A stretch of 40,189 nucleotides of DNA from positions 1 through 40,189 of the forward strand of contig MFPR01000038.1 in NCBI GenBank assembly GCA_001784175.1. Reading direction: 5' to 3'. This stretch comes from Candidatus Lindowbacteria bacterium RIFCSPLOWO2_12_FULL_62_27. Lineage in GTDB: Bacteria; Lindowbacteria; 2-12-FULL-62-27. Each line of letters begins with the position of its first letter. Within the stretch, counting starts at the first letter, position 1. The notes under the pieces are model-generated. The model searched no databases. It had not been told where the DNA came from and was given only the letters and a program-made list of their open reading frames with translations. Below are positions 10,624 to 40,189 of the stretch, one piece after another. Made by a program: the position numbers and the translations under genes.

Positions 10624-10638
10624 CGGCCTATAGTATTT

Positions 10639-10677
10639 CCTCTCCCCTCCTCGCGGGGTAAGAAAGTGAATAGCTGC
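10639..10677 (-). repeat. Decayed half of a CCTCTCCC palindromic element next to the giant gene start
   Basis: The sequence CCTCTCCCC, a GC-rich centre and the tail GTGAATAGCTGC match the right half of the intact element at 30250-30290 (CCTCTCCCCCC, then GTGAATAGTTGC). The right arm has lost its complementarity. On the coding strand its left arm provides the purine-rich tract GAGGAGGGGAGAGG upstream of ATG 10623, though at more than the usual Shine-Dalgarno distance. Confidence 0.55.
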
Positions 10678-10728
10678 AAGAAACGCATTTAGTAATATAC
10701 GGTTATTTATATACATATAATAATAGGG

Positions 10729-14984: not shown

Positions 14985-15021
14985 CCCAGGGGGATGAAAT
15001 ATCAGAAGACATCGTCTGATC

Positions 15022-15121
15022 CCCTCTCCCCCGAAGGGGGAGAGGGTCAGGGTGAGGGGGTTCTTCGGCGCCAGAATGGCCACCCTCACCCCGGCCCTCT
15101 CCCGCCAAAGGCGGGAGAGGG
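15022..15121. repeat. Bipartite CCCTCTCCC palindromic element (intergenic copy)
   Basis: Two strong hairpins, CCCTCTCCCCC-GAA-GGGGGAGAGGG (15022-15046) and CCCTCTCCCGCC-AAA-GGCGGGAGAGGG (15095-15121), are separated by GGGTGAGGG and CACCCTCACC, which are themselves complementary. The whole 100-bp unit can fold into a cruciform-like structure. The same architecture occurs inside a gene at 30169-30274. Confidence 0.85.
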
Positions 15122-15156
15122 GGGAAATCCAGGAGACGGCGCATCAAATTTCCAGT

Positions 15157-23275: not shown

Positions 23276-23304
23276 TTGACGGCGCATTTTTCCGATGCTA
23301 ATGA
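23276..23304 (+). promoter_or_regulatory. Candidate sigma-70 promoter of the PEGA-RsbU cluster
   Basis: TTGACG (23276-23281), a 17-bp spacer and TAATGA (23299-23304) fit a sigma-70 promoter. Transcription would start around 23311, which favours ATG 23316 with a very short leader over ATG 23295. If ATG 23295 is used, this promoter cannot be right. Confidence 0.35.
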
Positions 23305-23315
23305 CTGGATTCAAG

Positions 23316-23681
23316 ATGAAGCGTTTCTCAGTCTGGTTCATGCTCATGGTCGCGTTCGCATCGGTCGGATGCACGGCCCGACGGGGGGCGTCCAAAGAGG
23401 AGCAGTTTATCCCCCTTGAGCGCGGAATGGCTGTGATCCAGTCCACGCCGCCGGACGCCTCCGTTTACATCAACGGCGCGCTGGTCGGCAAAACCCCGCA
23501 GAAAAAACTATTCTTAATTCCTGGGACTTACGACCTTGAAATACGAAAAGAGGGGTTTGGCCCCTGGAAGGAAAAAATATTGATTCTTGAAAATACCGTC
23601 CACGAAATCCAGGCCAAACTGCCGGGGTTTAGCCCCACCGACACGCCCGTGCTCAAACGGCCCGCCGAGAGGCTGTATTAA
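23316..23681 (+). CDS. Small PEGA-domain lipoprotein
   Basis: The 121-residue protein starts with a lipoprotein-type signal (MKRFSVWFMLMVAFASVGC), with Cys19 as the likely lipidated residue; the lipobox SVGC is imperfect. A PEGA domain follows (AVIQSTPPDASVYINGALVG, KTPQKKLFLIPGTYDLEIRKEGF), a beta-rich module common in surface proteins and membrane-bound regulators. An in-frame ATG at 23295 would add seven residues before the signal. It is 33 nt upstream of the phosphatase gene across an AT-rich spacer. A role in envelope sensing is inferred from the neighbours only. Confidence 0.8.
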   Translation: MKRFSVWFMLMVAFASVGCTARRGASKEEQFIPLERGMAVIQSTPPDASVYINGALVGKTPQKKLFLIPGTYDLEIRKEGFGPWKEKILILENTVHEIQAKLPGFSPTDTPVLKRPAERLY

Positions 23682-23714
23682 TATACTGTATATATATAAG
23701 GGGAACCCAGCCGG

Positions 23715-25265
23715 ATGCAGGTGAGTTTGAGGGCCAAGTTTGCGGGCGTGGTGCTCGGGCTGATCCTGGTGCTGATCTGCGCCATCTGGGCGCTGATGAT
23801 GCGCCAGCAGGCGGAGATGGAGAAGCGCATTTCGGAGCATCAGCGTGGGGTCATGCTGGCGGAACTCAAGAAACGGACCAGCAGCATTTTTGCGTTTCTG
23901 ACGGCCAACAGCGAGGCCCTGTCGATCGAGGACTACCTGACGGTGGACGCATTTGTCCGGGAGATGTCGCGGTCCTCCGACATCCGGTACATTCACATCG
24001 TCGTCGATGGCCGGCTCGTCGTCCCGATGGTGAAAAATCCTCCGATGTACGAGCTTCCCCGAGGCGTCGCGCCGGCGGGGACCGACGTGCGTTTTGACGA
24101 AACGACCGGGCCGGACGGCGAGCCGCTGGTGCTGGTCAGCGGGCCGATCGTGGACAAGACCATCCGCCTGACGGTGGGGTCGGCGTACGTGGCCGTGTCG
24201 AAGCAGCCCATTCTGGAGGCGATCGAGCAGGCCGCGCTGGAAGTCAGCCGCGTCGCGCAGTCGGTCCGGAGGCGGGTGACGCTGATCACGCTGATTTTCG
24301 TCGCGCTCGGCGTCGCCTGCTCGGTCGTGCTGGTCAGCATGATCGTGCGGCCCATCCGGGAACTGGCGGCGGGCGCGCGGGTGATCGGGAGCGGCAATCT
24401 GGACCATCAGGTGGAAGTGCGGTCGAGGGACGAGGTGGGGGACCTCGCGCGGACCTTCAATGAGATGACGCAGGACCTCAAGGCGGCGCAGCGGAGATTG
24501 ATCGAGACGGAAAAATTCGACCAGGAGCTGAAAATCGCGACGGAGATCCAGCAGGCGCTTTTGCCCAAAAGTCTTCCGAAGGTCCTCGGCCTGGATCTTG
24601 GAGCGTATTACAAGTCGGCGAAGGACGTCGGCGGCGACTATTACGATTACATCCCGGTCCAGAGGGACAGCCGCGGAAAAATCGCGGTCGTGGTCGCGGA
24701 CGTGGCCGGCAAGGGCCTTCCGGGGGCGGTGGTCATGTCGATGACGCGGAGCATTCTGCGGTCGCAGGTGACGCTGGCGCTGTCGACGGCCGACACGCTG
24801 CGCCGGACGAACGCGGTGCTGCAGCCGGACATCAAGGCGGGGATTTTCGTCAGCATGTTCTACGGCCTGGTGGACAGCGGCACCGGCGAGACCGAATTCA
24901 GCAGCGCCGGGCACAACACGACGCTGATTTACCGCGCAAAGACCCGAGAGGTGGAGAAGATCGACTGCGGCGGGATGGCGCTGGGCGTGGTGAGTCCCGA
25001 GCGGTTCGACGGGATGATCGAGACGAAGAAGACGGTCTTGTTGACCGGAGACATTTTGATCCAGTATACTGACGGGGTCGATGAGGCGATGAATCCGGAC
25101 CACGAGCAATTCGGGATGGACCGGCTGTACGAGGCGATCCGGAAGTGCGGAACGCGCGGCGCGCAGGAGATGCTGGAAGAAATCCAGGAGCGGATCACCA
25201 CCTTCGTGTCCGGCAACCCGCCTTCGGATGACATCACGATGGTCGCCGTGAAACGGGTGGCCTGA
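23715..25265 (+). CDS. Membrane RsbU/SpoIIE-type PP2C serine phosphatase with HAMP domain
   Basis: The 516-residue protein has a transmembrane helix (about 9-29), an extracytoplasmic sensor region (about 30-188), a second helix (about 190-212), a HAMP linker (IVRPIRELAAGARVIGSG, then EVGDLARTFNEMT) and a SpoIIE/RsbU phosphatase domain (about 275-515). Metal-binding motifs are DVGGDYYDY (about 303), VADVAGKG (about 327) and PSDDITMV (about 503). Known relatives dephosphorylate an anti-anti-sigma (STAS) protein. No STAS gene lies in the window. A GGGGA ribosome binding site is 10 nt upstream. The kinase gene follows after 14 nt. Confidence 0.93.
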   Translation: MQVSLRAKFAGVVLGLILVLICAIWALMMRQQAEMEKRISEHQRGVMLAELKKRTSSIFAFLTANSEALSIEDYLTVDAFVREMSRSSDIRYIHIVVDGRLVVPMVKNPPMYELPRGVAPAGTDVRFDETTGPDGEPLVLVSGPIVDKTIRLTVGSAYVAVSKQPILEAIEQAALEVSRVAQSVRRRVTLITLIFVALGVACSVVLVSMIVRPIRELAAGARVIGSGNLDHQVEVRSRDEVGDLARTFNEMTQDLKAAQRRLIETEKFDQELKIATEIQQALLPKSLPKVLGLDLGAYYKSAKDVGGDYYDYIPVQRDSRGKIAVVVADVAGKGLPGAVVMSMTRSILRSQVTLALSTADTLRRTNAVLQPDIKAGIFVSMFYGLVDSGTGETEFSSAGHNTTLIYRAKTREVEKIDCGGMALGVVSPERFDGMIETKKTVLLTGDILIQYTDGVDEAMNPDHEQFGMDRLYEAIRKCGTRGAQEMLEEIQERITTFVSGNPPSDDITMVAVKRVA

Positions 25266-25279
25266 GGAGCGACGCGGGC

Positions 25280-25750
25280 ATGGCGAAAACACAGGAACGG
25301 AAAAAATCGGCGGGACCCAGACTTAGGAAGACGGTATTGCGGCTGGCCGCGCAGCCGGATGCGCTCAAGGTTGTCCGGAACACCATCCTGAAGGAAGCCG
25401 GAGCGCTGCGGATCCATCCTGAAGAACTCTACTCCATGGTGCTTGCGGTGGACGAGGCCTGCGCCAACGTCATCCGGCACGCCTACAAGGACGGCCCGGC
25501 GAGGCCGATGATCATCGAGATTGAAATTACCAGCCGCCAGATGAGCATCGTGATCCGCGATTCGGGTCAGGCGTTCGATTTCGGCGAGTATCCGCGCATT
25601 CCGGTCCGGGAGGCCATCGCACAGCGGGCCGAGCGGGGATACGGGATTCAGATCATCAAGTCCGTGGTGGACCGCTGGGAACACACGCGCACAAAATCCG
25701 GCGAGAACCGGCTCCGGTTGATCAAGTACTTCCATCCGGCCGGATCCTGA
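25280..25750 (+). CDS. RsbW-like anti-sigma factor serine kinase (GHKL ATPase)
   Basis: The 156-residue single-domain ATPase has an N-box VDEACANVIRHAY (57-69), a G1 box DSGQAFDF and a G2 box RGYGIQIIKSVVD. This size and order fit RsbW/SpoIIAB-type kinases, which phosphorylate STAS proteins and hold a sigma factor. A GAGGAG ribosome binding site precedes the ATG. With the RsbU-type gene before it, it should form the phosphatase/kinase pair of a partner-switching module; the STAS partner and target must be encoded elsewhere. Confidence 0.92.
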   Translation: MAKTQERKKSAGPRLRKTVLRLAAQPDALKVVRNTILKEAGALRIHPEELYSMVLAVDEACANVIRHAYKDGPARPMIIEIEITSRQMSIVIRDSGQAFDFGEYPRIPVREAIAQRAERGYGIQIIKSVVDRWEHTRTKSGENRLRLIKYFHPAGS

Positions 25751-27669: not shown

Positions 27670-30345
27670 TCAGCGTCGCCTTTTCCCGCGCTCCGGTTTG
27701 ACCGGCGCGGCCGGCGGAGGCAATCTCGCCTGAAGCTCCGAAAGGAGCGCGCCGGCGTCCTGCCAGTTGCCCAGGCTCAGGGCGCGCTCGGCCAGCCGGT
27801 GGAGCGTGCGGAGATGGGCGGGAAATCCCGAGTCGGTGACGCGGCCGGCGAGGGAGGAGAGGGTTTCCCTGAAAGATTCCTGACAATACGCCTGAACAAG
27901 GATCGTATAATGATTGAGGAGCCTTAAGGCTCGGATGGCCGTCAGCGTGTCTCCTTCCACGTAACTGTTCATGGCCGATTCGTAGAGTTGCTCGAGCCGG
28001 CGGTCCATGCCGGCCGGCGGATTCTGGTGCGCCGGCAACGGCAGATGGGACTTCAGCCATTTTCGGGCCGTTGCGAGGGAGAGTTCGAGCGGCGTGACGA
28101 GAAGCGGCGTATCGGATTTGAGCGAAAGCTCGCGCACGTCGGTCAACTGAAACTGGTCGACCGGCGCGGGCAGGATTTGGGGAGAGGACGGAAAGACGAG
28201 AAGGGGGACCACCAGCCGGCTTCCGGCCTTCACCGGGACGGCGGGATCGAGCCGGTTGATCTGCGCGAGGAAATTCTGAAGGCGCGCGTCCTTGTAAAAG
28301 AGGAGGGCCAGGCGGGACAGCTTATCGGGCTTCGCCGCCACGGTTTCGATGTAAAGATCGAGCGGCTGGGGCCGCCGCTCTTCCCGGCCCAGACGTTCGT
28401 ACGAGGAGAGAATCGAGCGGATCACCATGTCGCCTCCGACCACGGCGCCGGGAACCGCGATGCGGGCGCCATCAAACAGTCCGGGGACGGGCGCATAATG
28501 AACGTCCAGCCGCTGCCGGACCGTCGCCCCGGCAAGATCCCTGGCGGTGACGATGATGGCGTTCGGTCCCTCTCTTAGAAGGAAATCCGCCGAAAATGAA
28601 TCGGCGCCGCCCTGCACCAAGACAGGAAGCGGGTCGAACAGAACCGTGTCCGGAAACCGGTCGATCACACGGCCGGTCACGCGCAGAGCTGGATCGGAGG
28701 TTCTGGCCGGGGTGGAATCCAACGCGAGACGCGGCGGCGCGGAATCCCACACAAGGGTTTCGCGGAATTCGTCCGTGTTGAAGAAACGGTCTTCGGCCGT
28801 GAGGACCATCATCTGCGTTTCGGCGGACAGCGTGGTCTCGATCTCGAATTTTCCGGTCGTCGGATCGAAACGGCGGAGCGCGCCGGCCGGCGACACCGTC
28901 AGCTTGGCCAAGGCGTCGTCCTCCAACTGGCCCTTGATCGAAACGGCCGGCGTTCTGGAAAATCCCGGCCGGTCGAGCCGGACGAGCCGGGGGGGTTCAT
29001 GGTCGACCGGCAGTCTCAACTGGCTTTCATTTCGGTCTGTCCTGATTTTCATCACCGCGACACCGCCCAAACTCTGCCGGCTGTCCAGCCAGACGCTCCG
29101 GCCTTCCACGCGAACGGGGCCGCTGTCCCAACGGTCGGCGCCCGGAAGGCGCACTGCGGCGAGGCGGGTCCGTTCGGTCGTCAACACATCGACCCTGATC
29201 TGGCCCGGAGAAAATATTTCGATGTCGGGCTCAAACTGGATCAGAGGCCGGACGAAGGGCCGCAGGACGAGTCCCAGAGATTCCGTTCCGATCAGCCATC
29301 CCTTTTCAGTGACCAGGATCCGGTTGATCGACTCGGACCGGGAACGGTCCGGAAAGAGATATATTTTTTCCCAGGTTTTCGTTTCCGCGTCGTAGCGGCT
29401 GATTCCGTCGACGGTGGAAACCAGCCGTTCCAGGCCGTTGGCCGCGATGTGCCGGGCCTCGTCGTCCGTCAGTCCCTGCAGCGTCGTGTAGTGCTCCCAG
29501 CGGGTTTCGTCGATATGATACCGGAACACGCCGCGCTCGGCCGAGCCCAGCCAGAGTTCCTGCCCTGCAAGGACGGCCGAGGTGAAGGCCGGCATGGCGT
29601 AGCCTTCCATGAAAGGGATGGATTCCCATTCATCGGAACGCGGTAGATAGCGCCGGACGTCCGCGCGCGTTGCGACAAACAAGTCGGCGGGGCCGGGGGC
29701 AAACGCGGTGATGTCATTCGATTCGCGGCCCTTCCCGAACACGGCGTAATCCAGATCGCCGGTCGACAGGTTCATCCGCGTGATACCCCAGCCCCGCGTG
29801 CCCATCCACAGGTTGCCGCGCCAGGCCGCCAGCGCCGTGAGAAAATTTCCGGAAAGACCATGTTGCTTCTGCAAAACTTTTTTCACCGCGCCGGACCGGT
29901 CGAGACCGGCCAGTCCGCCATCCGTGGCGGCCCACACGGTCCCCCCGTGCGCCAGGAGGCCGGACACGTATCGGCCCGGCAATCCGTGCTCGGGGCCGAT
30001 GCGGCCCACCTGCTCCATACCGGCCGCCGTGTCAACCAGCCGGACCCGCACGATCCCGTCGGTCGTGCCCGCCCAGAATTCCGGGCCGACCTGCGCGATG
30101 GACTTGATTTGCAAGCCCGCCCCAAACGACGCGTCGGACATGGCCCAATTCTTGCCCGGAGCAATCCCCCCTCTCCCGCCTACGGCGGGAGAGGGTAGGG
30201 GTGAGGGTGGCAGGGTTCGATCGCCGCCCTCCGCCCCCCTCACCTCAATCCTCTCCCCCCTGCGGGGGGAGAGGAGGTGAATAGTTGCGTCTGGGGCGAG
30301 CACGATCAGTACGGCGAGGACGCCTGTCATGCGAAAAATTCTCAT
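27670..30345 (-). CDS. Secreted beta-propeller / Ig-like / LysM-type protein
   Basis: The 891-residue protein has a signal peptide (MRIFRMTGVLAVLIVLAPDA). Residues about 65-360 carry repeats like FWAGTTDGIVRVRL, VWAATDGGLAGLDR and LWMGTRGWGITRMNL, as in two-component-regulator-type propellers. Two or three Ig-like segments follow (about 400-650; PPRLVRLDRPGFSRTP, PPRLALDSTPARTSDP). A LysM/tail-X-like motif lies at about 660-715 (KLSRLALLFYKDARLQNFL, INRLDPAV). The C terminus is helical and TPR-like. LysM suggests peptidoglycan contact; this is inference. The ATG overlaps the stop of the TPR gene (ATGA). A palindromic element encodes about 37 residues straight after the signal peptide. It ends 6 nt from the convergent coiled-coil gene. 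Confidence 0.85.
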   Translation of the reverse strand: MRIFRMTGVLAVLIVLAPDATIHLLSPRRGERIEVRGAEGGDRTLPPSPLPSPAVGGRGGIAPGKNWAMSDASFGAGLQIKSIAQVGPEFWAGTTDGIVRVRLVDTAAGMEQVGRIGPEHGLPGRYVSGLLAHGGTVWAATDGGLAGLDRSGAVKKVLQKQHGLSGNFLTALAAWRGNLWMGTRGWGITRMNLSTGDLDYAVFGKGRESNDITAFAPGPADLFVATRADVRRYLPRSDEWESIPFMEGYAMPAFTSAVLAGQELWLGSAERGVFRYHIDETRWEHYTTLQGLTDDEARHIAANGLERLVSTVDGISRYDAETKTWEKIYLFPDRSRSESINRILVTEKGWLIGTESLGLVLRPFVRPLIQFEPDIEIFSPGQIRVDVLTTERTRLAAVRLPGADRWDSGPVRVEGRSVWLDSRQSLGGVAVMKIRTDRNESQLRLPVDHEPPRLVRLDRPGFSRTPAVSIKGQLEDDALAKLTVSPAGALRRFDPTTGKFEIETTLSAETQMMVLTAEDRFFNTDEFRETLVWDSAPPRLALDSTPARTSDPALRVTGRVIDRFPDTVLFDPLPVLVQGGADSFSADFLLREGPNAIIVTARDLAGATVRQRLDVHYAPVPGLFDGARIAVPGAVVGGDMVIRSILSSYERLGREERRPQPLDLYIETVAAKPDKLSRLALLFYKDARLQNFLAQINRLDPAVPVKAGSRLVVPLLVFPSSPQILPAPVDQFQLTDVRELSLKSDTPLLVTPLELSLATARKWLKSHLPLPAHQNPPAGMDRRLEQLYESAMNSYVEGDTLTAIRALRLLNHYTILVQAYCQESFRETLSSLAGRVTDSGFPAHLRTLHRLAERALSLGNWQDAGALLSELQARLPPPAAPVKPERGKRRR
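30169..30274. repeat. Bipartite CCCTCTCCC palindromic element inside the propeller gene
   Basis: Two hairpins, CCCTCTCCCGCC-TAC-GGCGGGAGAGGG (30169-30195) and CCTCTCCCCCC-TGC-GGGGGGAGAGG (30250-30274), flank GGGGTGAGGG and CCCCCTCACC. The layout equals the intergenic copy at 15022-15121. It is read without a stop as about residues 24-60 of the propeller protein, rich in Pro, Gly and Arg. Confidence 0.85.
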
Positions 30346-33300
30346 TCGGTTTCGTTCCGTTTCAGTTTCTCAATCTTCTTCCGGGCGCGTTCGATGTAAT
30401 CCCGGGCCTTCACGTTGTCCGAATCGATCGCCAGGACCCGGTTCCAGTCGGCGACCGCTTCGTTCAGGCGGCCCTCCTGGTAGTGGCCGAGACCCGAGAA
30501 GATATACTGGCTGATCGCGCCCGACTTCTCTGTTTTCCATCGTTGCTGCAATTCTTCAAGCCTCCGGGCCCATTCCGTCTCGCCGGACCGCGCCGCCGCA
30601 TGGCGCGCGTCCAGCGTGAGGATCTGGCGGTAGAGAGACAGCACATGCCGGGCACGCTGCATCGCGAGGTCCGTCCGGTTCTGATCCACCGCGAGCTGGA
30701 CTTTCTGACGGTAGCGGTCCGCTTCCTGCAACCATCCGGCGATGTGTTCGGCCGAGCGGTCCACGACGGGCGCGCCCTCGATCGCGATGGCGCGCTCCGC
30801 CTCGGCGCGCGCCATGCTCAAGCGGTCGATCTCGTTCAAGCCGGTCCGGGCACCCGCGTTCTCGGGATCGACGCGCAAGACAGCCCGGAACGCGGCGCGG
30901 GCCGATTCGTACTGGCCGGCGTCGACCGCCGCCCGGCCCTGGTCCATCCACTGGGCCAACTGTGTAGCGAGGCCGCTGCGTGCGTCCGCCAGACGCGTGC
31001 GAACTTCCGGATGGTCGGCATGCAATTTTTCCGCGGCCTGATAGGATTCGACGGCCTTCAAAAGATTTCCCTGCTCGCGCAGCCGGTCGCCCTCCCGCAG
31101 GTGCCACGCGATCTGATCGTCCAGGGACTGCCGGGCGCTCGCGAGATAATTGTTGACGAGCTTGCGCTGCGGATCCGCCTTCCGGACTTCCTCCCAGACC
31201 TCGATGGCCTTCATGAAATTCCCCTGCTCGTACAGGTTGACGCCGGTGACGAATTTCTCCTCAAGGTCTTTTTCGCGCACCGCCTGATCGATGCGGCCCC
31301 GCGCTTCCTCGATCAGCGAGCGGGCGCCGGCCAGGCTCGAATACTCGGACAGCGCCATCTCCCAGACCGCGATGGCTTGCTCGAAATGGAGGTTGCGATA
31401 ATGCGTGAGGCCCGCGTTGAACAACTGCTGGGCCCGCGCCAGATCCGTCTTTTCCTTGTTCCTCCGCTCCGCGTCCGCGCGGAGCTGCCTTGCGCGAACG
31501 TCGTCGGGGTCGACCGAGATGATCCAGTCCAGCGTCGCGATGGCGGGCTCGTATTCTTCCTTCGAGAACCGCCCCAGGGCGTCGGCGTATTCTCTCTCGA
31601 TGCGCGGCAGGAGGAGACTTCGGATCTCTCCGCGGCCTTTTGCCGCGGCCTCGTTGTAGGGATCGACCGCGAGCGCCCGATTGTAGAATTTCAGCGCCTG
31701 CTCCGGATCGCCGCCCGCTTGGAGACGCGACGACTCCGACACCATCGACCGGACGAACGACAGGAACCGTCCGGCGTGGGCCTCAATGCGCTTGCGGACT
31801 TCCGGATGATCGATCTCGCGCGCCAGGATCTCCTGCCAGGCCTTGAGCGCGACATCGACATTGCCCTGGTTCATGGCGGCGTCGCCGAGCTTCAGTTTCT
31901 CCGATATCTCCTCCGCCCGGCGGATCTGCACCTCCTGCAGGATGGCGCGGGCCGGAGCGTAGTCCGGGTCGAGGGCGAGACTGTGAGAGGCGAGCAACTC
32001 GGCCGCGTCGATCTGGCCCTTCAGAAACTCCGCCTGCGCCAGAAGCTCGAACCGCGCCGCCTCCTGCTTGCGCTCGTCCGGTTCCAGTTGCGCCTGGCGG
32101 AACTGCGCGAGCTGTTCGAGCACGGCGGCGGCCTTCGGATGGCCGTCGGCGCGGCGGACGAGAAGCTGGAGCCGGCTCTCGGCCTCGTCCCACCGGCCCC
32201 TCCGATATTCCTCAAGGCCTTTCCGGTACAGCTCGTAGCGGTCCCGGAACTGTTCGCGCTCGATCAGCCGCGTCTTGGCCGCCTCCAGATATCGCCGGGC
32301 GGCCGAGTGGGCCGGCTGGAAGTAGAGGACGCGTTCCATCTCCCGCGCGGCGTCGCTCAGATTGCCGATCAGATATTCGGTCAGGCCCCTCACGAAATGC
32401 TGTTCCACGAATGTGTCGCGCGTCGATTCGATGTGCGCCTTCGCGGTCAGCGCCTTGTCGAACGCCGGGTCGTGCTCGAGGATCGACCGCACGATCCGGT
32501 CGGCCTCCACGAGGTCGCCGGCGGCCAGACGCCGCTCCGCCTCCGACCACGGGGCGAGGACGTTCTGGTCGTAATCCTTGCGCGTTTCCGCCATGTACCG
32601 GCGGGGCATGGGGTTGGACGGCTGGAGTTTCTGCGCCTCCTCCCATTCCTGCATCGCCTTCGGATATTCCTTCTTCGCCCGGTGCGTCAGCCCGCGCTGC
32701 AGCCGCTCGCTCGCGACGGTGCCCTGGGACTTGCCGAACTCGTACGACAGCGACAGCCGCTGGAAGTTGTCGAAGAGGCTCGACGGGAGGATCGCGTAGT
32801 CGAACTTGAGGTCGCTGAACCGGAACCCGAACCCGAAGGTCGGATCGCCGTTGTCGAGGCCGGTGCGGACCGCCAGCCAGGACTTGGGCAGCCACTCGAG
32901 GCCGAAGTGGATGCGGTGGACGTCCACCGTTGTGAGGTCGAGATCGAGCGCGAACTGCAGCCAGTCGAACATGCGGTAGGAGGCGCCGAGCTTGGCGGCC
33001 ATCGGCAGTTTTTCGGCGACCGTCTTGAGCTTGATCTGCGGCTCGATGAAGTTCTGGACGTTGAGGCCGAGCGACAGCTTGTCGGTGATCCCGTCCGACT
33101 GCGCATGGCGGATGACGCCCTCGAAGAACGGAATGGCCTCCCGCAGCTTGCCGGCGTCGTACAGCTCGACGCCGCGGTTGAACCACGCGGACAGCGTCGC
33201 CTCCCGCAAGGACATCGGCGGGTTGGCGCGGAGGAACTCGACCATCGCGCGATGGCCGTTGGTGATCGCCCGCGCCTGGAACTGATAGCCCTTGCGCCGG

Positions 33301-34055
33301 CCGGCGTCGATGGTCCGGTCGCGCAGCTTGCGGGCTTCCTTGTAGTCGCGATCCAGCTCGAGCGCCTTCTCGAGCATCGCGAAGGCCCTCGGCAAATCGC
33401 CGTTCTGGAAGGCCTGCGCGCCCTGGTCGTAGAAGCCCTCGGCCTGGCTGCGAATCTGCGCCTTCGCCAGCGTCAGGTACGCGCGGCTGAACTCGACGTA
33501 GGCGTGGGTGAACCGGTAGAGCGCGCCGACGTCGAGGCCGAATCCGGTGCCGGAGAATTCCGCGATCTGCTCGCGGAGCACGTGCAGGGTGCTGCCGACG
33601 TACAGCGAGTTGGTGATCTGCTTGCCGTAGCCGAGCATGAAATTCATCTTGCTGATGTCGAAGGTCCCGATGTTCCCGCCCGCCGTGTTGCGGCGCGTCA
33701 GGTCGCCCCAGCCCTCCAGCACCATGCCGCCGCCGATCGTGCCGAACCGGCCGACCGGATGCTTGTAGGCGAACATGTTGTACCAGGTCTTGTCGAAGTA
33801 CGTCTTCGAGTACTGCCCGAAGAGTTCGTACCGGCGGTCGAGGTCGAGCGCGGCCGGATTCCAGAAGACGGCGGTCGCGTCGTCCGCCATCGCCATGTAG
33901 GCGTTGCCCATGCCGGCCGGCCGAGCGCCGAATCCGAGTTTCTTGCTCGGCTCCACCACGCCGCCCTTCTGGGCTTCGGCGAACGTCGCGGCCGTCCAGA
34001 CCAGGAGGAACGCCGCGGTGATCAGCACCCGGAACATGCGGTTAACGGTGGTCAT
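30342..34055 (-). CDS. PorV/UPF0164-like outer-membrane barrel with inserted and C-terminal TPRs
   Basis: The 1237-residue protein has a signal peptide (MFRVLITAAFLLVWTAATFA). It then shows the PorV/PorQ hallmark GARPAGMGNAYMAMADDATA followed by VFWNPAAL, which opens an outer-membrane barrel (about 37-190). Two or three TPR-like helices (about 200-317; NGDLPRAFAMLEKALELDRD) interrupt it. The barrel then resumes (about 317-446; KLSLGLNVQNFIEPQIKLK, FGFGFRFSDLKFDYAI, LSLSYEFG). About 790 residues of TPR repeats end the protein. PorV-type proteins act in type 9 secretion and surface attachment in Bacteroidetes. ATG 34055 overlaps the upstream TGA (TGATG); GTG 34058 directly before it is an alternative. 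The stop overlaps the propeller gene start. Confidence 0.88.
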   Translation of the reverse strand: MTTVNRMFRVLITAAFLLVWTAATFAEAQKGGVVEPSKKLGFGARPAGMGNAYMAMADDATAVFWNPAALDLDRRYELFGQYSKTYFDKTWYNMFAYKHPVGRFGTIGGGMVLEGWGDLTRRNTAGGNIGTFDISKMNFMLGYGKQITNSLYVGSTLHVLREQIAEFSGTGFGLDVGALYRFTHAYVEFSRAYLTLAKAQIRSQAEGFYDQGAQAFQNGDLPRAFAMLEKALELDRDYKEARKLRDRTIDAGRRKGYQFQARAITNGHRAMVEFLRANPPMSLREATLSAWFNRGVELYDAGKLREAIPFFEGVIRHAQSDGITDKLSLGLNVQNFIEPQIKLKTVAEKLPMAAKLGASYRMFDWLQFALDLDLTTVDVHRIHFGLEWLPKSWLAVRTGLDNGDPTFGFGFRFSDLKFDYAILPSSLFDNFQRLSLSYEFGKSQGTVASERLQRGLTHRAKKEYPKAMQEWEEAQKLQPSNPMPRRYMAETRKDYDQNVLAPWSEAERRLAAGDLVEADRIVRSILEHDPAFDKALTAKAHIESTRDTFVEQHFVRGLTEYLIGNLSDAAREMERVLYFQPAHSAARRYLEAAKTRLIEREQFRDRYELYRKGLEEYRRGRWDEAESRLQLLVRRADGHPKAAAVLEQLAQFRQAQLEPDERKQEAARFELLAQAEFLKGQIDAAELLASHSLALDPDYAPARAILQEVQIRRAEEISEKLKLGDAAMNQGNVDVALKAWQEILAREIDHPEVRKRIEAHAGRFLSFVRSMVSESSRLQAGGDPEQALKFYNRALAVDPYNEAAAKGRGEIRSLLLPRIEREYADALGRFSKEEYEPAIATLDWIISVDPDDVRARQLRADAERRNKEKTDLARAQQLFNAGLTHYRNLHFEQAIAVWEMALSEYSSLAGARSLIEEARGRIDQAVREKDLEEKFVTGVNLYEQGNFMKAIEVWEEVRKADPQRKLVNNYLASARQSLDDQIAWHLREGDRLREQGNLLKAVESYQAAEKLHADHPEVRTRLADARSGLATQLAQWMDQGRAAVDAGQYESARAAFRAVLRVDPENAGARTGLNEIDRLSMARAEAERAIAIEGAPVVDRSAEHIAGWLQEADRYRQKVQLAVDQNRTDLAMQRARHVLSLYRQILTLDARHAAARSGETEWARRLEELQQRWKTEKSGAISQYIFSGLGHYQEGRLNEAVADWNRVLAIDSDNVKARDYIERARKKIEKLKRNETE

Positions 34056-37000
34056 CACTTGGCCACCGCGATTCTGTCCGTGGCGACTTCGGACGAGCCG
34101 TCGGTGTACTCGACGGTCAGACGGACGAAATACCCGCCATTCAGGACGACGCGGCCCTGGCCGTTGCGTCCATCCCAGGTCGGCGCCTGGACGAGCGTGT
34201 TGAAGAGGTTCACACCGGCGCCGTAGGTGACCGGGCCGATCACCCGCACCAGTTCCCCGGTGAAGTCATAAATCCGGATCGTCGCGGAACCCGCCTTGGT
34301 CATGTTCCACGCGAACTTGAATCCGCTCCAGGTCGTTCCCTGCTCCGTGTAGCTCTCAAACGGGCTGGCCGGGTTCGGGAATCCCCGGAAGGTCTCCTGG
34401 GCGGACTGGCCGGCGGCGAATTCGAAGACGACGGCGTACATCGAGAAGTTCTTGGACGAGCCTTTGATGGTGGCCGTCTCCCCGTATAGATTCAGCGACG
34501 CGTCGGACACCGACTCCCACAGGCGCGTGGTTTCGTTGTAATGCGAGAGCGTCAGCATGTGGGCCGTCAGCGGCGTGCCGTCGGCCTCGTAGAAGGCCGT
34601 GGGTTGCGTCACGTCGAGTTCGATGCCGAGCGGCTCGGCGAAATCGTCCGGCACGAGCGGGGTCAGGACCGTCGGATTGGCGAGGTTGATCTTCGCGATC
34701 GTGAAGTCGTAGATGGACTGGCCAAGCTCGGCCGGCAGAAGCTCCATGAACGGCATGTTCTTCGCGGTCTCTTTCGACTCCTCGAGCACCACCTTGTTGG
34801 TCGAGTCGGGATCGGTCACCGCCATCCAGACGGGCCCGAGACCCGGCTTGAAGAGGCCCGGCTTCAGCTTCAGCCGCGCCTTGCCGTCCGGCGACGCCGC
34901 CGAATCGATCGAGGCGAGCTGCTCGGCCGAGATGAGCGTGTTGAAGACGGTCGTCGTGGTCGCCTGTTTGTAGTCCGCCGGCTCGTCCTGGTCGCGGACG
35001 CTGGTGTCGACGCGCAGGTAGAACCGCCGGAGCGCCGGCCAGGCCGTGTCCGCATAGACCGCCTGGATCTGCACCGTCCGGCTGTCCAAGACCGTCACGG
35101 ACTGGGTGACGCTCACGCCGGCCGCGTCGACCAGCGCGACGGAGGTCTCGGTGACCGTCGACGAGTCGACCGGGATGTTGAAGGTGACGATCAGCGGCAG
35201 GAGCCGGTTGTCGGTGTCAAACGGCGGCGGCAGGAGATACGTGCCGTCCGTCGGATGCGTCGTGTCGACGGCCGGGTATCGCGTGCGGACCGTGTAGGTG
35301 TCGGACCGCACGGGCGCGCCGAGGACGTTCAGATCATCGAGCGAATCGATCCCGCGGACCTTGACGTCCGAGTTCGACGCGATCTCGACGTAGAACATGG
35401 AGTTGATCGTAAGATTCGCGGCCGTGACATACGCGACGAGCACCGGAACCGTTTCGGCGGCCTGAACCGTGAACGGCGTCCCGCTTAGCGTGGCCGAGGA
35501 ACCGGAGAAGGTTCCGGACCAGAGGAACGTGTCGCGCGTGCCGAGGGATCCGATCGTGTCGGCGTCCATGTAGAGCCGGACCTGCGTGACGGCGGACGCC
35601 GGCATCGACCCGGTGTGGGTCACCTTGACCTGCGAGACCGACACCGCCTCCTGGCGGTCGGCGGCGAAGTTGAAGACGGCGACGGCGTTCGTGTCGCTCT
35701 CCTGGACGGTGAACCGCTTGGGCTGCGTGTCGGACCGGGTCAGGAAGAGCCGGCCGGGCCGGGCCTTGAGCGAGATCGACCGGACGGGCGCGCCGGTGAT
35801 GCGGATCGTGTCGCCGGTCACCACGCCGACCGCATAAACGTCCGCGTTCGCGGCCAACACCAGAGCGTAGGTGTCGCCCGCGACAAGGGTCGTGTCCATG
35901 TTCGCAACCACGAGGACCGAGATGCGGCCCAGGGACGGCACGCGGACGGTGTCGCCGATGTTGCTGAAGGTCGCGATCGAGCCGGCCAGCGCGGCGCGCT
36001 GGACGAACGTGTCGGTCGGGGACGCGTCAAGAACTCCGTCGGAATCGCCGTCGAGGTACAGATCGACAAACTCGATCTCGGTGTCCGGACCGAGGGAGCC
36101 TGTGTCATAGCGGAAGACCATGGTGTCGATCCGGACGGGTTCCGGCGCGCCGGCGGCCGTCAGCGCGAGCTGCAGCCATTCGACGTTCGAGGAATCGTCG
36201 TCGACCTCGGTGTCGACGGGAGGATGGGCGCCCTGGCCCAGCGCGAGGCTGGCCTCGAAGAGGACGCGGATCGTGTCCTGGCTGAAGTTCGACAGCCGGT
36301 CGTGTCCGAAGACGCGGAGGACGTAGATGCCGGCGGTGTTGAGGCTGACGTCCACGGCCCAGCGCGAGTCCGCGCTCAGGATCGCGACGCTGTCCACGAT
36401 CACGCCGTTGACTTCGATGCTGACCGAATCCATGCCCACCAGCGTGTCCCGGGCCGTGCCGAAGAACCGGATCGTCGACTCGATCGTGTCGACGCCGTCC
36501 TCCGGCCCGTCGATCGTGAGGATCGGCGGCGCGGTGTCCACTGTGAACTTGCGGGTCACGGTCGTGTCGAAGTTGCCCGCCGTGTCGATCGCCAGGACGC
36601 GCCAGTAGTAGAAGCTGTCGGCGAGGGTCGCCGGAACGAACGTGGTGTCAAGCACGATCGTCGAGGCCTGGAGGACCGACGCGAAGGTCGTGTCGCCCGC
36701 GATCTGGAGGACGAAGGTCTCGCCGCCGTCGTTGCTTGTCCACGTGAACCGCGGCTGACGGTTGATCGTATCGTGGTTGTCCGCCGGCGTGAGGAGCGTC
36801 ACGATGAGGCTCGTGTCGATGACCAGTGCCCTCGAATCGGAGGCGCGGGTCGGCACGCCCGCCGTGTCGACCGCCACCACGCGCCAGCGGTATGTGCCTT
36901 CCGTCAGGAACGGCGTCACATCCCATTCCGTGTCGTACTGGGTGTCGGACCGGATGGGCGCGGTGAAGCTCGTGTCGTCGAGCGCGGCGACCTGGACGAC

Positions 37001-40000
37001 GTAGAAGTTCAGGCCGGTGACGGTGTCGCGCGACGCTTGCCACGCCATGGTTGGCGTCGTGTCGTTCCGCGTGTAGCCCTCGGCCGGAGACGCCAGGGAG
37101 ACCTCGACCGGGGCGCCGGTATCGACGTAGAGCCGCCGGATCACGGACGTGTCGTAATTGACGGCGCGGTCCTCGGCCAGGATTCTCCAGTAATAGACGC
37201 TGTCGGTCAGGCCCGGCGTCCGGTAGGACGGCACGCCGACCACCTGCGTCGTCTCGGCCACGCGCGTGAAGGCCGAGTCGAAGGCGATCAGGATCACGAA
37301 GGTTTCGCCGTCGCTCGACCAGACGAAGGTCGGCCGCGTGTCGGTCGTGAACGTGTCGTCCGCAGGGGCGGTCAGGACGACCCTCACGCCGGTGTCGAGC
37401 CGGAAGTCGAACGAATCCGAGTAGGGGCCGCGGTTGCCCAGATCGTCGATGCCCTGGACGCGCCAGTAATAGGTGTCCTCCACCAGGATCGTCAGCGTGT
37501 CGCTCGTGACGGCGGCGTCGACCGTGTCGGCGTAGGACACGAACGCGAAGGACGGGCTGGGTGTGACTTCCAGCGAGTAGCTGTCGACGCCGACGCTGTC
37601 CGCGGCGATCGCCTGCCACGTGAAGGTCGGCGTCGTGTCCTTCGTCACGAGGCTGTCCACCGGCGAAAGCAGCAGCACCCGGGCGACGTCGGTGTCGAGG
37701 AGGAACCCGCGCGTGTCGGAGTAGGCGCCGATGTTCGCGAGTTCGTCGATCGCGCGGACGCGCCAGAAGTACGTGTCGTTGTACAGGCCGGTGACCGTGT
37801 CGGCCGTCCGGGTCCCGTCGATCGTGTCGACGAAGTCGGCGGCGGCGAACGTCAGGAGTTTCGAGAGTTCGACCACGTACGAATCGATGCCGACGCTGTC
37901 GGCCACCGACTGCCACGTCACCACGGGCATGGCGTTCGTCGTCTCGTGGGCGTCGGCCGGCTGGATCGCGGAGACCTGCGCGACGAACGTGTCGAGGAGA
38001 ATGATGCGGAAAGTCGTCGTGTCGTAATTGCCCGCCGCGTCCTGGCCGATCACGCGCCAGTAGAACGTGTCCTGCTCCGGCAGGCGCCGCAGGGCCTGCA
38101 GCGCGGCGGTGTCGACGACGGAATCGAGGGTCGTCGAGAAGGCCGGGCTCTTGGAGAGCTGCCACGTGAACGTTTCCGCGTCGGTCGTGCTCCAGATGAA
38201 CATGACGTTGACGTTGGTCGTCTCGTGGCCGTCGGCCGGCGCCACCAGCGAGACGGTCAGGCTCGTGTCGATCACGAGCCGGAACGTGTCCGGCGCAAGA
38301 TCGGTGCGGTTGCCGAGATCATCGATCGCGTGCACGCGCCAGTAATAGGTGTCCTCCGTCAGGAACGGGCCGATCGTGTAGCTGGTGACGGCCATGTCGA
38401 CGGTATCGGCGCGGGCGATCACGGCGAAGCTCGCGCCGGCCGAGACCTCGATGGCGTAACTGTCGATGCCGACGCTGTCGGTCGTGATCGCCTGCCACGT
38501 CAGGGTCGGCGTCGTGTCGTTGGTGCGCGTGCCCTGCGAAGGCGACAGGAGGACAACCTTCTCGACGGCCGTGTCGACGATGAAGCCGAACGTATCGGAA
38601 TAGGCGCCGACATGACCCAGATGGTCGATCGCCCGGACGCGCCAGAAGTAGGTGTCGTTGTAGAGGCCGGTGATCGTGTCGGACGCCGACGTGCCGTCTA
38701 CCGTGTCGATGAGGACCGCCGCCGTGAACGCCGCCGACTTCGATACTTCGACGATGTAGGAGTCCACGCCCACGCTGTCGGACAGCGTCTGCCACGAAAC
38801 GACGGGCGTCGCGTTCGTTGTCTCGTGCGCGTTCGCCGGGCTTGCGGCCACGACCGCGTCGATGTCCGTGTCGACCACAAAACCGCGGGTGTCGGAGAAC
38901 ATGCTGATGTTGCCGAGGTCGTCCACCGCGCGCACGCGCCAGTAGTACGTGTCGTTATAGAGTCCCGTGATCGTGTCGCCGGCGGCCACCGCATCCAGGG
39001 TGTCGGCAAAGATCGCGACCGAGAACGACAGGAAGTTGGAGGCTTCGACGACGTAGGAATCGACGCCCACGCTGTCCGACACCGCCTGCCACGTCACGAC
39101 CGGCGTTGCGTTCGTCGTCTCATGCCCGGCGGCAGGCTGAACGAGGGCGACTTTCTCGACCGCCGTGTCGATGATGAATCCGCGCGTGTCGCTAGTCGGG
39201 CCCACGTTGCCCAGATCGTCGATCGCGCGCACGCGCCAGAAGTACGTGTCGTTGTAGAGACCCAGGACCGTGTCGGCCGTGAAGGCGCCGTCGGCGGTGT
39301 CGACGAAGACGGTCGAGGTGAAGGCCAGAGTCTTTGAAACCTCGACCACGTACGAGTCGATGCCGACGCTGTCGGACACCGCCTGCCAGGAGACGATCGG
39401 CGCCGCGGTCGTCGTCTCGTGGCTGTTGGCCGGCGCGGCGAGCGCCACCGGATAGACCGACGTGTCCAGGACAAGGGTCCGGGCGGCGGCGGTATCGAAA
39501 TTGCCGGCGGCGTCGGACCCAATGACCCGCCAGAAGTACGTGTCCTGGTCCGGCAGGTCGCTTCGGACCTGGATGGCGGAGGTGTCAACGGCGGAGTCGA
39601 TGATCGTCGTGAACGCGGCGCTCTTCGAGAGCTGCCAGGTGTACGTTTCGGCGTCGAGCGAGGACCACAGGAACGTCACGCGTGCGTTGGTCGTTTCATG
39701 GCCGGCGGCCGGGCTGACCAGCGACACCGCCATGCTCGTGTCGACGATGAACCGGAACGAATCGGGGGCAACATCCAGGCGGTTGCCCAGCTCGTCGATC
39801 GCCAGGACGCGCCAGTAGTACGTGTCCTCCACCAGGAAGTTCTGGGCGCTGTCGCTGGTCCGGGATACGTCGAGGGTGTCCGCCAGGATCAGGGACGTGA
39901 AGTTGACATTTCTCGAAAGTTCGATGGCGTAACTGTCGATCCCCACGCTGTCCGCCAGTGCCGCCCAAGTAAAGAGCGGCGTCGAGTCGTTGGTCCGGAG

Positions 40001-40189
40001 GCCATGGACGGGCGCGAGAAGCGTGACGTTCCGAACGGATGTGTCAAGGAGGAACCCGCGGGTGTCGGCGTAGGCGCCGATGTTGCCGAGATCGTCGATG
40101 GCCCGCACGCGCCAGTAGTACGTGTCGTTGTACAAACCCGTCACCGTGTCGCTCAGCCGCAGCCCGTCCACCGTGTCCACAAACTGCGG
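34055..40189 (-). CDS. Giant Ig/FN3-repeat surface protein with FlgD-like C-terminal sorting domain (5' end outside window)
   Basis: The frame is open from the right edge to TGA 34055-34057 (2044 residues visible). At least a dozen Ig/FN3-like units (about 40189-36540) share SVGIDSYVVEVSK and DTYYWRVRAIDDLGN with the left giant protein. Next come an Ig-like unit (ILTIDGPEDGVDTIESTIRF), two beta-rich modules (VDLYLDGDSDGVLDASPTD; VRLYMDADTIGS), and a Big_5-type Ig domain (about 35270-34930; PLIVTFNIPVDSSTV). The end (about 34380-34058) is a FlgD-like/T9SS-type tail: FRGFPNPASPF, ATIRIYDFTGELVRVIG, TWDGRNGQGRVVLNGGYFV, IAVAK. Such tails direct export and surface anchoring. It is translationally coupled to the PorV-like gene. 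Confidence 0.92.
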   Translation of the reverse strand, partial: PQFVDTVDGLRLSDTVTGLYNDTYYWRVRAIDDLGNIGAYADTRGFLLDTSVRNVTLLAPVHGLRTNDSTPLFTWAALADSVGIDSYAIELSRNVNFTSLILADTLDVSRTSDSAQNFLVEDTYYWRVLAIDELGNRLDVAPDSFRFIVDTSMAVSLVSPAAGHETTNARVTFLWSSLDAETYTWQLSKSAAFTTIIDSAVDTSAIQVRSDLPDQDTYFWRVIGSDAAGNFDTAAARTLVLDTSVYPVALAAPANSHETTTAAPIVSWQAVSDSVGIDSYVVEVSKTLAFTSTVFVDTADGAFTADTVLGLYNDTYFWRVRAIDDLGNVGPTSDTRGFIIDTAVEKVALVQPAAGHETTNATPVVTWQAVSDSVGVDSYVVEASNFLSFSVAIFADTLDAVAAGDTITGLYNDTYYWRVRAVDDLGNISMFSDTRGFVVDTDIDAVVAASPANAHETTNATPVVSWQTLSDSVGVDSYIVEVSKSAAFTAAVLIDTVDGTSASDTITGLYNDTYFWRVRAIDHLGHVGAYSDTFGFIVDTAVEKVVLLSPSQGTRTNDTTPTLTWQAITTDSVGIDSYAIEVSAGASFAVIARADTVDMAVTSYTIGPFLTEDTYYWRVHAIDDLGNRTDLAPDTFRLVIDTSLTVSLVAPADGHETTNVNVMFIWSTTDAETFTWQLSKSPAFSTTLDSVVDTAALQALRRLPEQDTFYWRVIGQDAAGNYDTTTFRIILLDTFVAQVSAIQPADAHETTNAMPVVTWQSVADSVGIDSYVVELSKLLTFAAADFVDTIDGTRTADTVTGLYNDTYFWRVRAIDELANIGAYSDTRGFLLDTDVARVLLLSPVDSLVTKDTTPTFTWQAIAADSVGVDSYSLEVTPSPSFAFVSYADTVDAAVTSDTLTILVEDTYYWRVQGIDDLGNRGPYSDSFDFRLDTGVRVVLTAPADDTFTTDTRPTFVWSSDGETFVILIAFDSAFTRVAETTQVVGVPSYRTPGLTDSVYYWRILAEDRAVNYDTSVIRRLYVDTGAPVEVSLASPAEGYTRNDTTPTMAWQASRDTVTGLNFYVVQVAALDDTSFTAPIRSDTQYDTEWDVTPFLTEGTYRWRVVAVDTAGVPTRASDSRALVIDTSLIVTLLTPADNHDTINRQPRFTWTSNDGGETFVLQIAGDTTFASVLQASTIVLDTTFVPATLADSFYYWRVLAIDTAGNFDTTVTRKFTVDTAPPILTIDGPEDGVDTIESTIRFFGTARDTLVGMDSVSIEVNGVIVDSVAILSADSRWAVDVSLNTAGIYVLRVFGHDRLSNFSQDTIRVLFEASLALGQGAHPPVDTEVDDDSSNVEWLQLALTAAGAPEPVRIDTMVFRYDTGSLGPDTEIEFVDLYLDGDSDGVLDASPTDTFVQRAALAGSIATFSNIGDTVRVPSLGRISVLVVANMDTTLVAGDTYALVLAANADVYAVGVVTGDTIRITGAPVRSISLKARPGRLFLTRSDTQPKRFTVQESDTNAVAVFNFAADRQEAVSVSQVKVTHTGSMPASAVTQVRLYMDADTIGSLGTRDTFLWSGTFSGSSATLSGTPFTVQAAETVPVLVAYVTAANLTINSMFYVEIASNSDVKVRGIDSLDDLNVLGAPVRSDTYTVRTRYPAVDTTHPTDGTYLLPPPFDTDNRLLPLIVTFNIPVDSSTVTETSVALVDAAGVSVTQSVTVLDSRTVQIQAVYADTAWPALRRFYLRVDTSVRDQDEPADYKQATTTTVFNTLISAEQLASIDSAASPDGKARLKLKPGLFKPGLGPVWMAVTDPDSTNKVVLEESKETAKNMPFMELLPAELGQSIYDFTIAKINLANPTVLTPLVPDDFAEPLGIELDVTQPTAFYEADGTPLTAHMLTLSHYNETTRLWESVSDASLNLYGETATIKGSSKNFSMYAVVFEFAAGQSAQETFRGFPNPASPFESYTEQGTTWSGFKFAWNMTKAGSATIRIYDFTGELVRVIGPVTYGAGVNLFNTLVQAPTWDGRNGQGRVVLNGGYFVRLTVEYTDGSSEVATDRIAVAK
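36540..40189 (-). repeat. Ig/FN3 repeat array with a 1473-bp higher-order unit
   Basis: The YYWRV-type codons recur at 40118, 39818, 39536, 39242, 38945, 38648, 38345, 38063, 37769 and 37469. The spacings are 300, 282, 294, 297, 297, 303, 282, 294 and 300. The pattern 282-294 returns after 1473 bp, and the domain types return in the same order: first the RTNDxTP type, then the AETYTWQLSKS type, then the SVGIDSYVVE type. Five domains (491 residues) therefore seem to have been duplicated as a block. The units nearer the C terminus are more diverged. Confidence 0.8.

Follow-up and report, generated by a model that had tools for sequence, protein, structure and literature searches.

When a giant repeat protein with a putative export tail is encoded directly in front of an outer-membrane barrel of the PorV family, it may be asked whether the barrel is dedicated to that one protein and whether the gene behind the barrel belongs to the same system. 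The preliminary description of this locus proposed both. The window analysed here, 40,189 nucleotides, is the whole of contig C38 of the source genome (G000; 4.39 Mb in 44 contigs, 94% complete), whose lineage probably lies outside Bacteroidota. G001 and G002 denote relatives from the same family, and Cn denotes contig number.

A giant repeat protein, a PorV-TPR protein and a propeller protein are encoded in overlapping order

The three minus-strand ORFs were found where the preliminary description placed them, at 40189..34055, 34058/34055..30342 (the ATG start lies at 34055) and 30345..27670, and the overlaps that it reported, TGATG at 34057..34053 and ATGA at 30345..30342, were borne out (Table 1). 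The range that it gave for the trio, 30342-40189, omits the third gene (27670..30345). The products are referred to here as P0001 (the giant repeat protein), P0002 (the PorV-TPR protein) and P0003 (the product of the third gene).

Table 1. Features of the three-gene locus, in window coordinates.
Feature	Positions	Strand	Basis
P0001, giant repeat protein (candidate cargo), C-terminal 2044 aa	34055..40189	-	ORF and Pfam
Type-A-like/FlgD-like export tail of P0001	34058..34396	-	Tail profile
TGATG stop/start overlap of cargo gene and barrel gene	34053..34057	-	ORF reading
P0002, barrel protein of the PorV/PorQ family with inserted and C-terminal TPRs, 1238 aa	30342..34055	-	ATG start
P0002 barrel, first half (profile 9-162)	33504..33938	-	Profile search
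P0002 TPR-like insertion that separates profile positions 162 and 166	33093..33503	-	Pfam/profile; topology inferred
P0002 barrel, second half (profile 166-326)	32736..33092	-	Profile search
P0002 C-terminal TPR array, predicted periplasmic	30345..32735	-	TPR_2, 1.2e-38
ATGA overlap of barrel gene and third gene	30342..30345	-	ORF reading
P0003, Reg_prop-type beta-propeller, Glucodextran_B, weak TPR-like C-terminus, 891 aa	27670..30345	-	ORF and searches

P0001 is incomplete in the window, its 5' end being cut off by the contig end. The part that is present carries fn3/Ig-like repeats (Pfam: Ig_Rha78A_N, 6.5e-26; Big_13, 2.1e-14; fn3, 3.7e-12). A second giant ORF (3572 aa, minus strand, 1-10716), with fn3 and lamin-tail domains, runs off the start of the contig.

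The PorV-like identity of P0002 proved sound, as it scores 116.2 bits against the PorV_fam model NF033709 (cut-off 90). It lies below the cut-offs of both equivalog models, with 26.9 of 250 bits for PorV (NF033710) and 72.7 of 220 bits for PorQ (NF033711), and is by these NCBIfam scores the closer to PorQ. The fusion of a long TPR region to the barrel was also confirmed, with TPR models matching down to 1e-38. In addition to the C-terminal array, approximately 137 residues of TPR-like sequence split the barrel profile into positions 9-162 and 166-326. Counting strands by eye, this insertion would sit where strand 6 turns into strand 7, on the predicted periplasmic side for a barrel whose two ends lie in the periplasm; the topology is that of the manual count because the structure models were unusable (single-sequence model of residues 2-500, mean pLDDT 38.8). 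The PorE model matches P0002 with an E-value of 0.05 (11.8 of 600 bits), and Pfam searches detected neither OmpA_C nor a LysM wall-binding domain in P0002 or P0003. A contig scan with P0002 gave one TPR match only, in a Deltaproteobacteria MAG.

For P0003, the propeller assignment is supported by a phmmer match to a solved Reg_prop-type sensor (3v9f, 7e-7). The protein also carries an Ig-like Glucodextran_B domain (Pfam) and a weak TPR signal at its C-terminus; a single-sequence structure model of residues 63-891 has a mean pLDDT of 34.8. A LysM domain had been proposed here, and was rejected since no Pfam family matches that stretch even at E<=10, which leaves the suggested link to the wall through LysM without support. 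An interspersed double-hairpin repeat of approximately 110 bases occurs in the window at 30167-30277 and 15021-15125 and about 20 times elsewhere in the genome. The first of these copies lies in frame within the third gene, at its 5' end, and adds about 40 residues between the signal-like start of P0003 and the propeller.

The giant/barrel pair is kept at other PorV-TPR loci

Genes for PorV-TPR proteins were found at four loci, namely the window, C13 and C9 of G000, and C105 of G002. At all four, the gene in front of the PorV-TPR gene encodes a repeat protein whose tail is similar, and an in-frame start of the PorV-TPR gene overlaps the cargo stop. The genes that follow differ, being a HAMP-SpoIIE-type phosphatase at C13 and in G002 and an unrelated gene at C9. 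A full-length homologue of P0003 was not found in any of the 41 genomes searched. Thus, of the three-gene layout in the preliminary description, the pair of giant and PorV-TPR protein is conserved and the third gene is not. Judged by these comparisons, P0003 is locus-specific and no fixed part of the giant/barrel pair.

It can be asked whether the giant, the TPR barrel and a LysM-propeller protein might nevertheless form one fixed wall-anchoring machine. The ATGA overlap of genes 2 and 3 would fit such an arrangement, as would the region C44:56538-64488, where genes for a cargo, a PorV protein and a WD40-propeller/TPR protein follow each other in overlapping order. Against this, searches did not detect gene 3 at the other three PorV-TPR loci and LysM is missing from the Pfam results, and we regard the fixed trio as very improbable.

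The window also contains genes for PEGA, HAMP-SpoIIE phosphatase and HATPase_c_2 proteins (23295-25750, plus strand). The SpoIIE-type protein directly behind PorV-TPR at C13 (L064) is 52% identical to that of the window and 59% identical to that of G002 (L067); the C13 and G002 proteins were assigned through these identities, the window protein by its Pfam matches. This likeness hints at a possible partner-switching control of the cargo pairs.

As a set, the tails resemble the C-terminal domains of PorZ and PorU

The tail of P0001 had been called FlgD-like/T9SS-type. Searched alone against public models it gives no match over the cut-off, with values of 8e-4 for FlgD_ig, 0.0052 for the PorU model and 0.081 for PF18962. 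An HMM built from 12 other G000 tails, with the four PorV-TPR tails excluded, recognises it at 40.6 bits (E=1.1e-11), and together with the FlgD_ig match this result supports a FlgD-like tail; the score of 83.5 bits against the full tail profile includes the P0001 tail itself in the training set.

To place the tails as a group, 16 aligned tails were compared with family models. In Pfam, FlgD_ig matched 15/16, CHU_C 14/16 and Por_Secre_tail 8/16. In NCBIfam, the type A sorting model TIGR04183 and the PorU model each matched 15/16, FlgD 13/16 and PorZ 12/16, and the type B model TIGR04131 matched 2/16 (best 0.0051). The tie between FlgD_ig and TIGR04183 counts against a type IX reading of the tails. 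When the tail profile was searched against solved structures, the C-terminal domains (CTDs) of PorZ (5m11, 1.2e-9) and PorU (6za2, 2.4e-8) ranked above FlgD (6e-6), and the cleaved CTDs of gingipains gave values of 0.07-0.8. FlgD proper was rejected as the identity of the tails on this ranking, although its models match 13 of the 16.

PorU is described as sitting on PorV, and PorZ on PorQ, at about 1:1 (PMC5562754), and the CTDs of PorU and PorZ are reported not to be removed (PMC11285876). The insertion hairpin of these two CTDs was considered as a mark of an uncleaved tail and was discarded, since section 2.4 of PMC11285876 reports that the hairpin distinguishing uncleaved CTDs is no determinant of cleavage in P. 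gingivalis.

Barrel genes mostly adjoin tail genes in the source genome and often do so in other genomes

The PorV family is found at 18 places in G000, 17 of them beyond fragment size (C30:10424 is a fragment). At 15 of the 17 the PorV-family gene lies directly behind a tail gene on the same strand, and at C26 the order is reversed, the barrel gene immediately preceding the gene for a tailed giant. If 1% of genes had tails (an assumed rate), 15 tail neighbours among 17 would arise with a probability of 1e-28. The start of the barrel gene lies in frame over the cargo stop in 13 of the 15 pairs, the exceptions being C18 and C30. The sole PorV gene in G000 without a tail neighbour, at C21:940, may encode a housekeeping barrel, because a similar neighbour precedes PorV in G001:C35: the C21 gene (G000:C21:910-3980, L074) follows a gene for a 707-aa outer-membrane-like protein, and likewise that of G001 (L183).

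Some of the proteins at these loci have further features. The PorV protein at C40 (L079:7965-9410) has an internal CBM30 match, and behind the C21 PorV gene (L074:13192-15786) lies a gene whose 864-aa product has six AMPK1_CBM/CBM48 stretches. The largest cargo frame, at C2 (G000:C2:43824-110685, L219-L222), ends in a PorV-paired tail and would encode a very large bacterial protein. It runs for 22,286 codons before the contig ends and is reliable for at least approximately 22,100 of them, because its first part includes an 18-N gap and about 150 residues that look non-coding.

The analysis was extended to 65 of at least 66 PorV genes over the cut-off in 13 other genomes (G008:C233, at a contig edge, was excluded), with tails sought by an HMM trained on G000 tails only. 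A tail gene lies directly upstream of 36 of the 65 PorV genes, spread over 12 of the 13 genomes, and the same HMM matches 8 of 101 other ORFs from these loci (Fisher 2e-11). At least two of these eight control matches (L152, L156), which were left as counted, are probably misses of the distance rule, since a C25 gene precedes a PorV match that begins late in the profile. By this rule 29 of the 65 PorV genes have no upstream tail gene; 56 of the 65 have any upstream ORF of at least 100 aa within it. In four of the 36 pairs (G003:C51, G009:C38, G027:C166 and G031:C29) the upstream protein contains a C25 domain, judged by position, and these resemble canonical porU-porV pairs. The earlier proposal of a barrel dedicated to one giant cargo thus gains support both from the four PorV-TPR loci and from the genome-wide pairing.

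Divergent tails mostly have a barrel neighbour and the common tail mostly does not

The tail profile recognises 47 places in G000, of which 36 are C-terminal tails (at least 59 bits) and 11 lie within the giants of C2 and C40 as internal repeats; remoter tails may escape the profile because it was trained on paired tails. A barrel gene adjoins 16 of the 36 tails and is lacking next to the other 20. Eighteen of the 20 unpaired tails form a single class, for which the nearest paired tail is always that of C30. Members of this common class share a mean identity of 66% (calculated over 16 of them), whereas the paired tails average 30% among themselves. A barrel neighbour is seen for 1 of 19 common tails versus 15 of 17 divergent tails (Fisher 5e-7), the two divergent tails that have no adjoining barrel being C23:20243 and C31:1820. 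The canonical tail model PF18962 detects 17 of the 20 unpaired tails but 3 of the 16 paired ones.

We compared tail distances with barrel distances. The correlation was r=0.50 (p=2e-4) for 16 pairs and r=0.40 (p=0.002) for 15. With one PorV-TPR copy retained it was r=0.26 (p=0.11, 13 pairs) and with none r=0.28 (p=0.12, 12 pairs). The co-divergence of tails and barrels thus owes its significance to the inclusion of all three PorV-TPR copies.

The lack of significance beyond recent copies would be compatible with the alternative that the barrels are FadL-like channels or unrelated outer-membrane proteins, with adjacency due to block co-duplication and no common function, and UPF0164/FadL models do match some family members. 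However, the adjacency recurs in 12 of the 13 other genomes over divergent barrels and tails, stops and starts overlap in nearly all of the G000 pairs, and it is the divergent tails, rather than the common ones, that have a barrel neighbour. We consider this explanation unlikely. We infer that tail and barrel would bind one another.

Other components of type IX secretion

G000 encodes a SprA-like protein of 1825 residues (C20:84304-89781), and one is present in G001 also. The check for SprA suggested earlier was partly successful: there is a match (C20:87598-88548, 6e-20), confined to one segment and, at 69 of 200 bits, below the family cut-off. The companion check for PorU was negative. No C25 protease was found in G000 (94% complete) or G002, although the model matches 15 of the 41 genomes; the match is weak in G001 and there are strong matches in many other genomes. 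The GldM/PorM model matched 0 of 41 genomes, and the controls were equally silent.

These results bear on whether PorV-TPR acts as an ordinary type IX shuttle, taking up any CTD cargo for tail removal at the attachment complex, in which case the gene linkage would reflect operon convenience. P0002 belongs to the PorV family, the type A sorting model recognises 15 of the 16 aligned tails, and the porU-porV pairs of other genomes have the same gene order. Conversely, where one or two PorV genes would be usual G000 has about 17, these are distributed by tail type, and a C25 protease was not found there. Delivery to an attachment complex on the Bacteroidetes pattern, as put forward in the preliminary description, is doubtful in G000 because no C25/PorU was found with a model that detects it elsewhere, and overall a general shuttle seems to us an improbable account, if a somewhat less improbable one than co-duplicated channels.

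Discussion

We lean, by a narrow measure of confidence, towards the view that the giant and PorV-TPR are a cargo and its private anchor in a type-IX-like secretion system. The cargo would be exported through the SprA-like translocon; its own barrel would then take the tail and retain it at the cell surface without cleavage, in the way that PorQ holds PorZ, PorV holds PorU and SprF holds SprB. Since searches revealed no PorU-type sortase, this barrel would be a final anchor and not a shuttle. The TPRs in the predicted periplasmic turn, together with the C-terminal array, could serve as an arm in the periplasm to which other envelope proteins dock, and at the window locus the co-translated propeller/Ig protein P0003 is a candidate partner of this arm. 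The number of barrels, roughly 17, would be explained if each tail type had one.

A wider and more tentative proposal, possible in our estimation and short of probable, is that each tail type is a label for its own PorV/PorQ-type barrel, which would receive that tail from a single shared SprA-like pore and serve as its permanent anchor without a sortase. The 18 cargos with the common tail would share the C30 barrel, divergent tails, including that of the C2 giant with its minimum of approximately 22,100 residues, would bring their own, and the PorV-TPR form would be tied to periplasmic proteins through the TPRs set into a barrel turn.

The preliminary description knew of no described system with this layout, and in this it overlooked SprB-SprF (PMC9143113) and PorZ-PorQ (PMC5562754). 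SprB of Flavobacterium johnsoniae is a giant repetitive CTD protein with a cognate 14-strand barrel encoded alongside; such pairs of a type B CTD and a PorP-like barrel occur several per genome, and the barrel is required for secretion and surface hold (PMC9143113 and PMC10202324). The pairs in G000 are alike in combining an often giant protein that has a CTD-like tail with a neighbouring, putatively cognate barrel and in occurring several per genome. They differ in that SprB-SprF has a type B tail and a PorP/SprF barrel, whereas the G000 tails are type-A-, PorU- and PorZ-like and the barrels are of the PorV/PorQ family. PorZ-PorQ and PorU-PorV of Porphyromonas gingivalis share with the G000 pairs an Ig-like CTD and a PorV/PorQ-family barrel, and possibly the uncleaved hold, and the C25 (porU-like) gene in front of PorV in other genomes has the same order as cargo and barrel. 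In P. gingivalis, however, the two pairs serve other cargo via the sortase, whereas G000 has some 16 pairs, often with giant cargo, and no C25 was found in it.

A third likeness is to PorP-PorE. PorE is composed of TPR, propeller, CRD and OmpA_C modules (domain description in PMC7192894), and TPR and propeller modules stand beside a putative CTD-binding barrel at C44 and in the third gene of the window also. The arm proposed for PorV-TPR recalls the TPR/propeller part of PorE beside PorP (PMC7192894 and PMC9143113). In G000, by contrast, the TPRs are fused into and behind the barrel, and OmpA_C and LysM were not detected.

Searches of open-access papers for PorV paralogues, for cognate barrels of the PorV type and for PorV beyond the Bacteroidota yielded no description of PorV-type tail-barrel pairs. 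A 2023 review does suggest that CTDs are protected by cognate PorV-like barrels (PMC10202324). The specificity of tail for barrel is directly testable in this organism, because it offers approximately 16 natural pairs, a non-cognate control set and apparently no cleaving enzyme, with comparable pairs in 12 other genomes. The pairs bear on how type IX cargo finds its barrel and on why some CTDs stay uncleaved, and they suggest how giant proteins could be anchored on a bacterial surface; they also include a barrel with TPR modules inside a predicted periplasmic turn.
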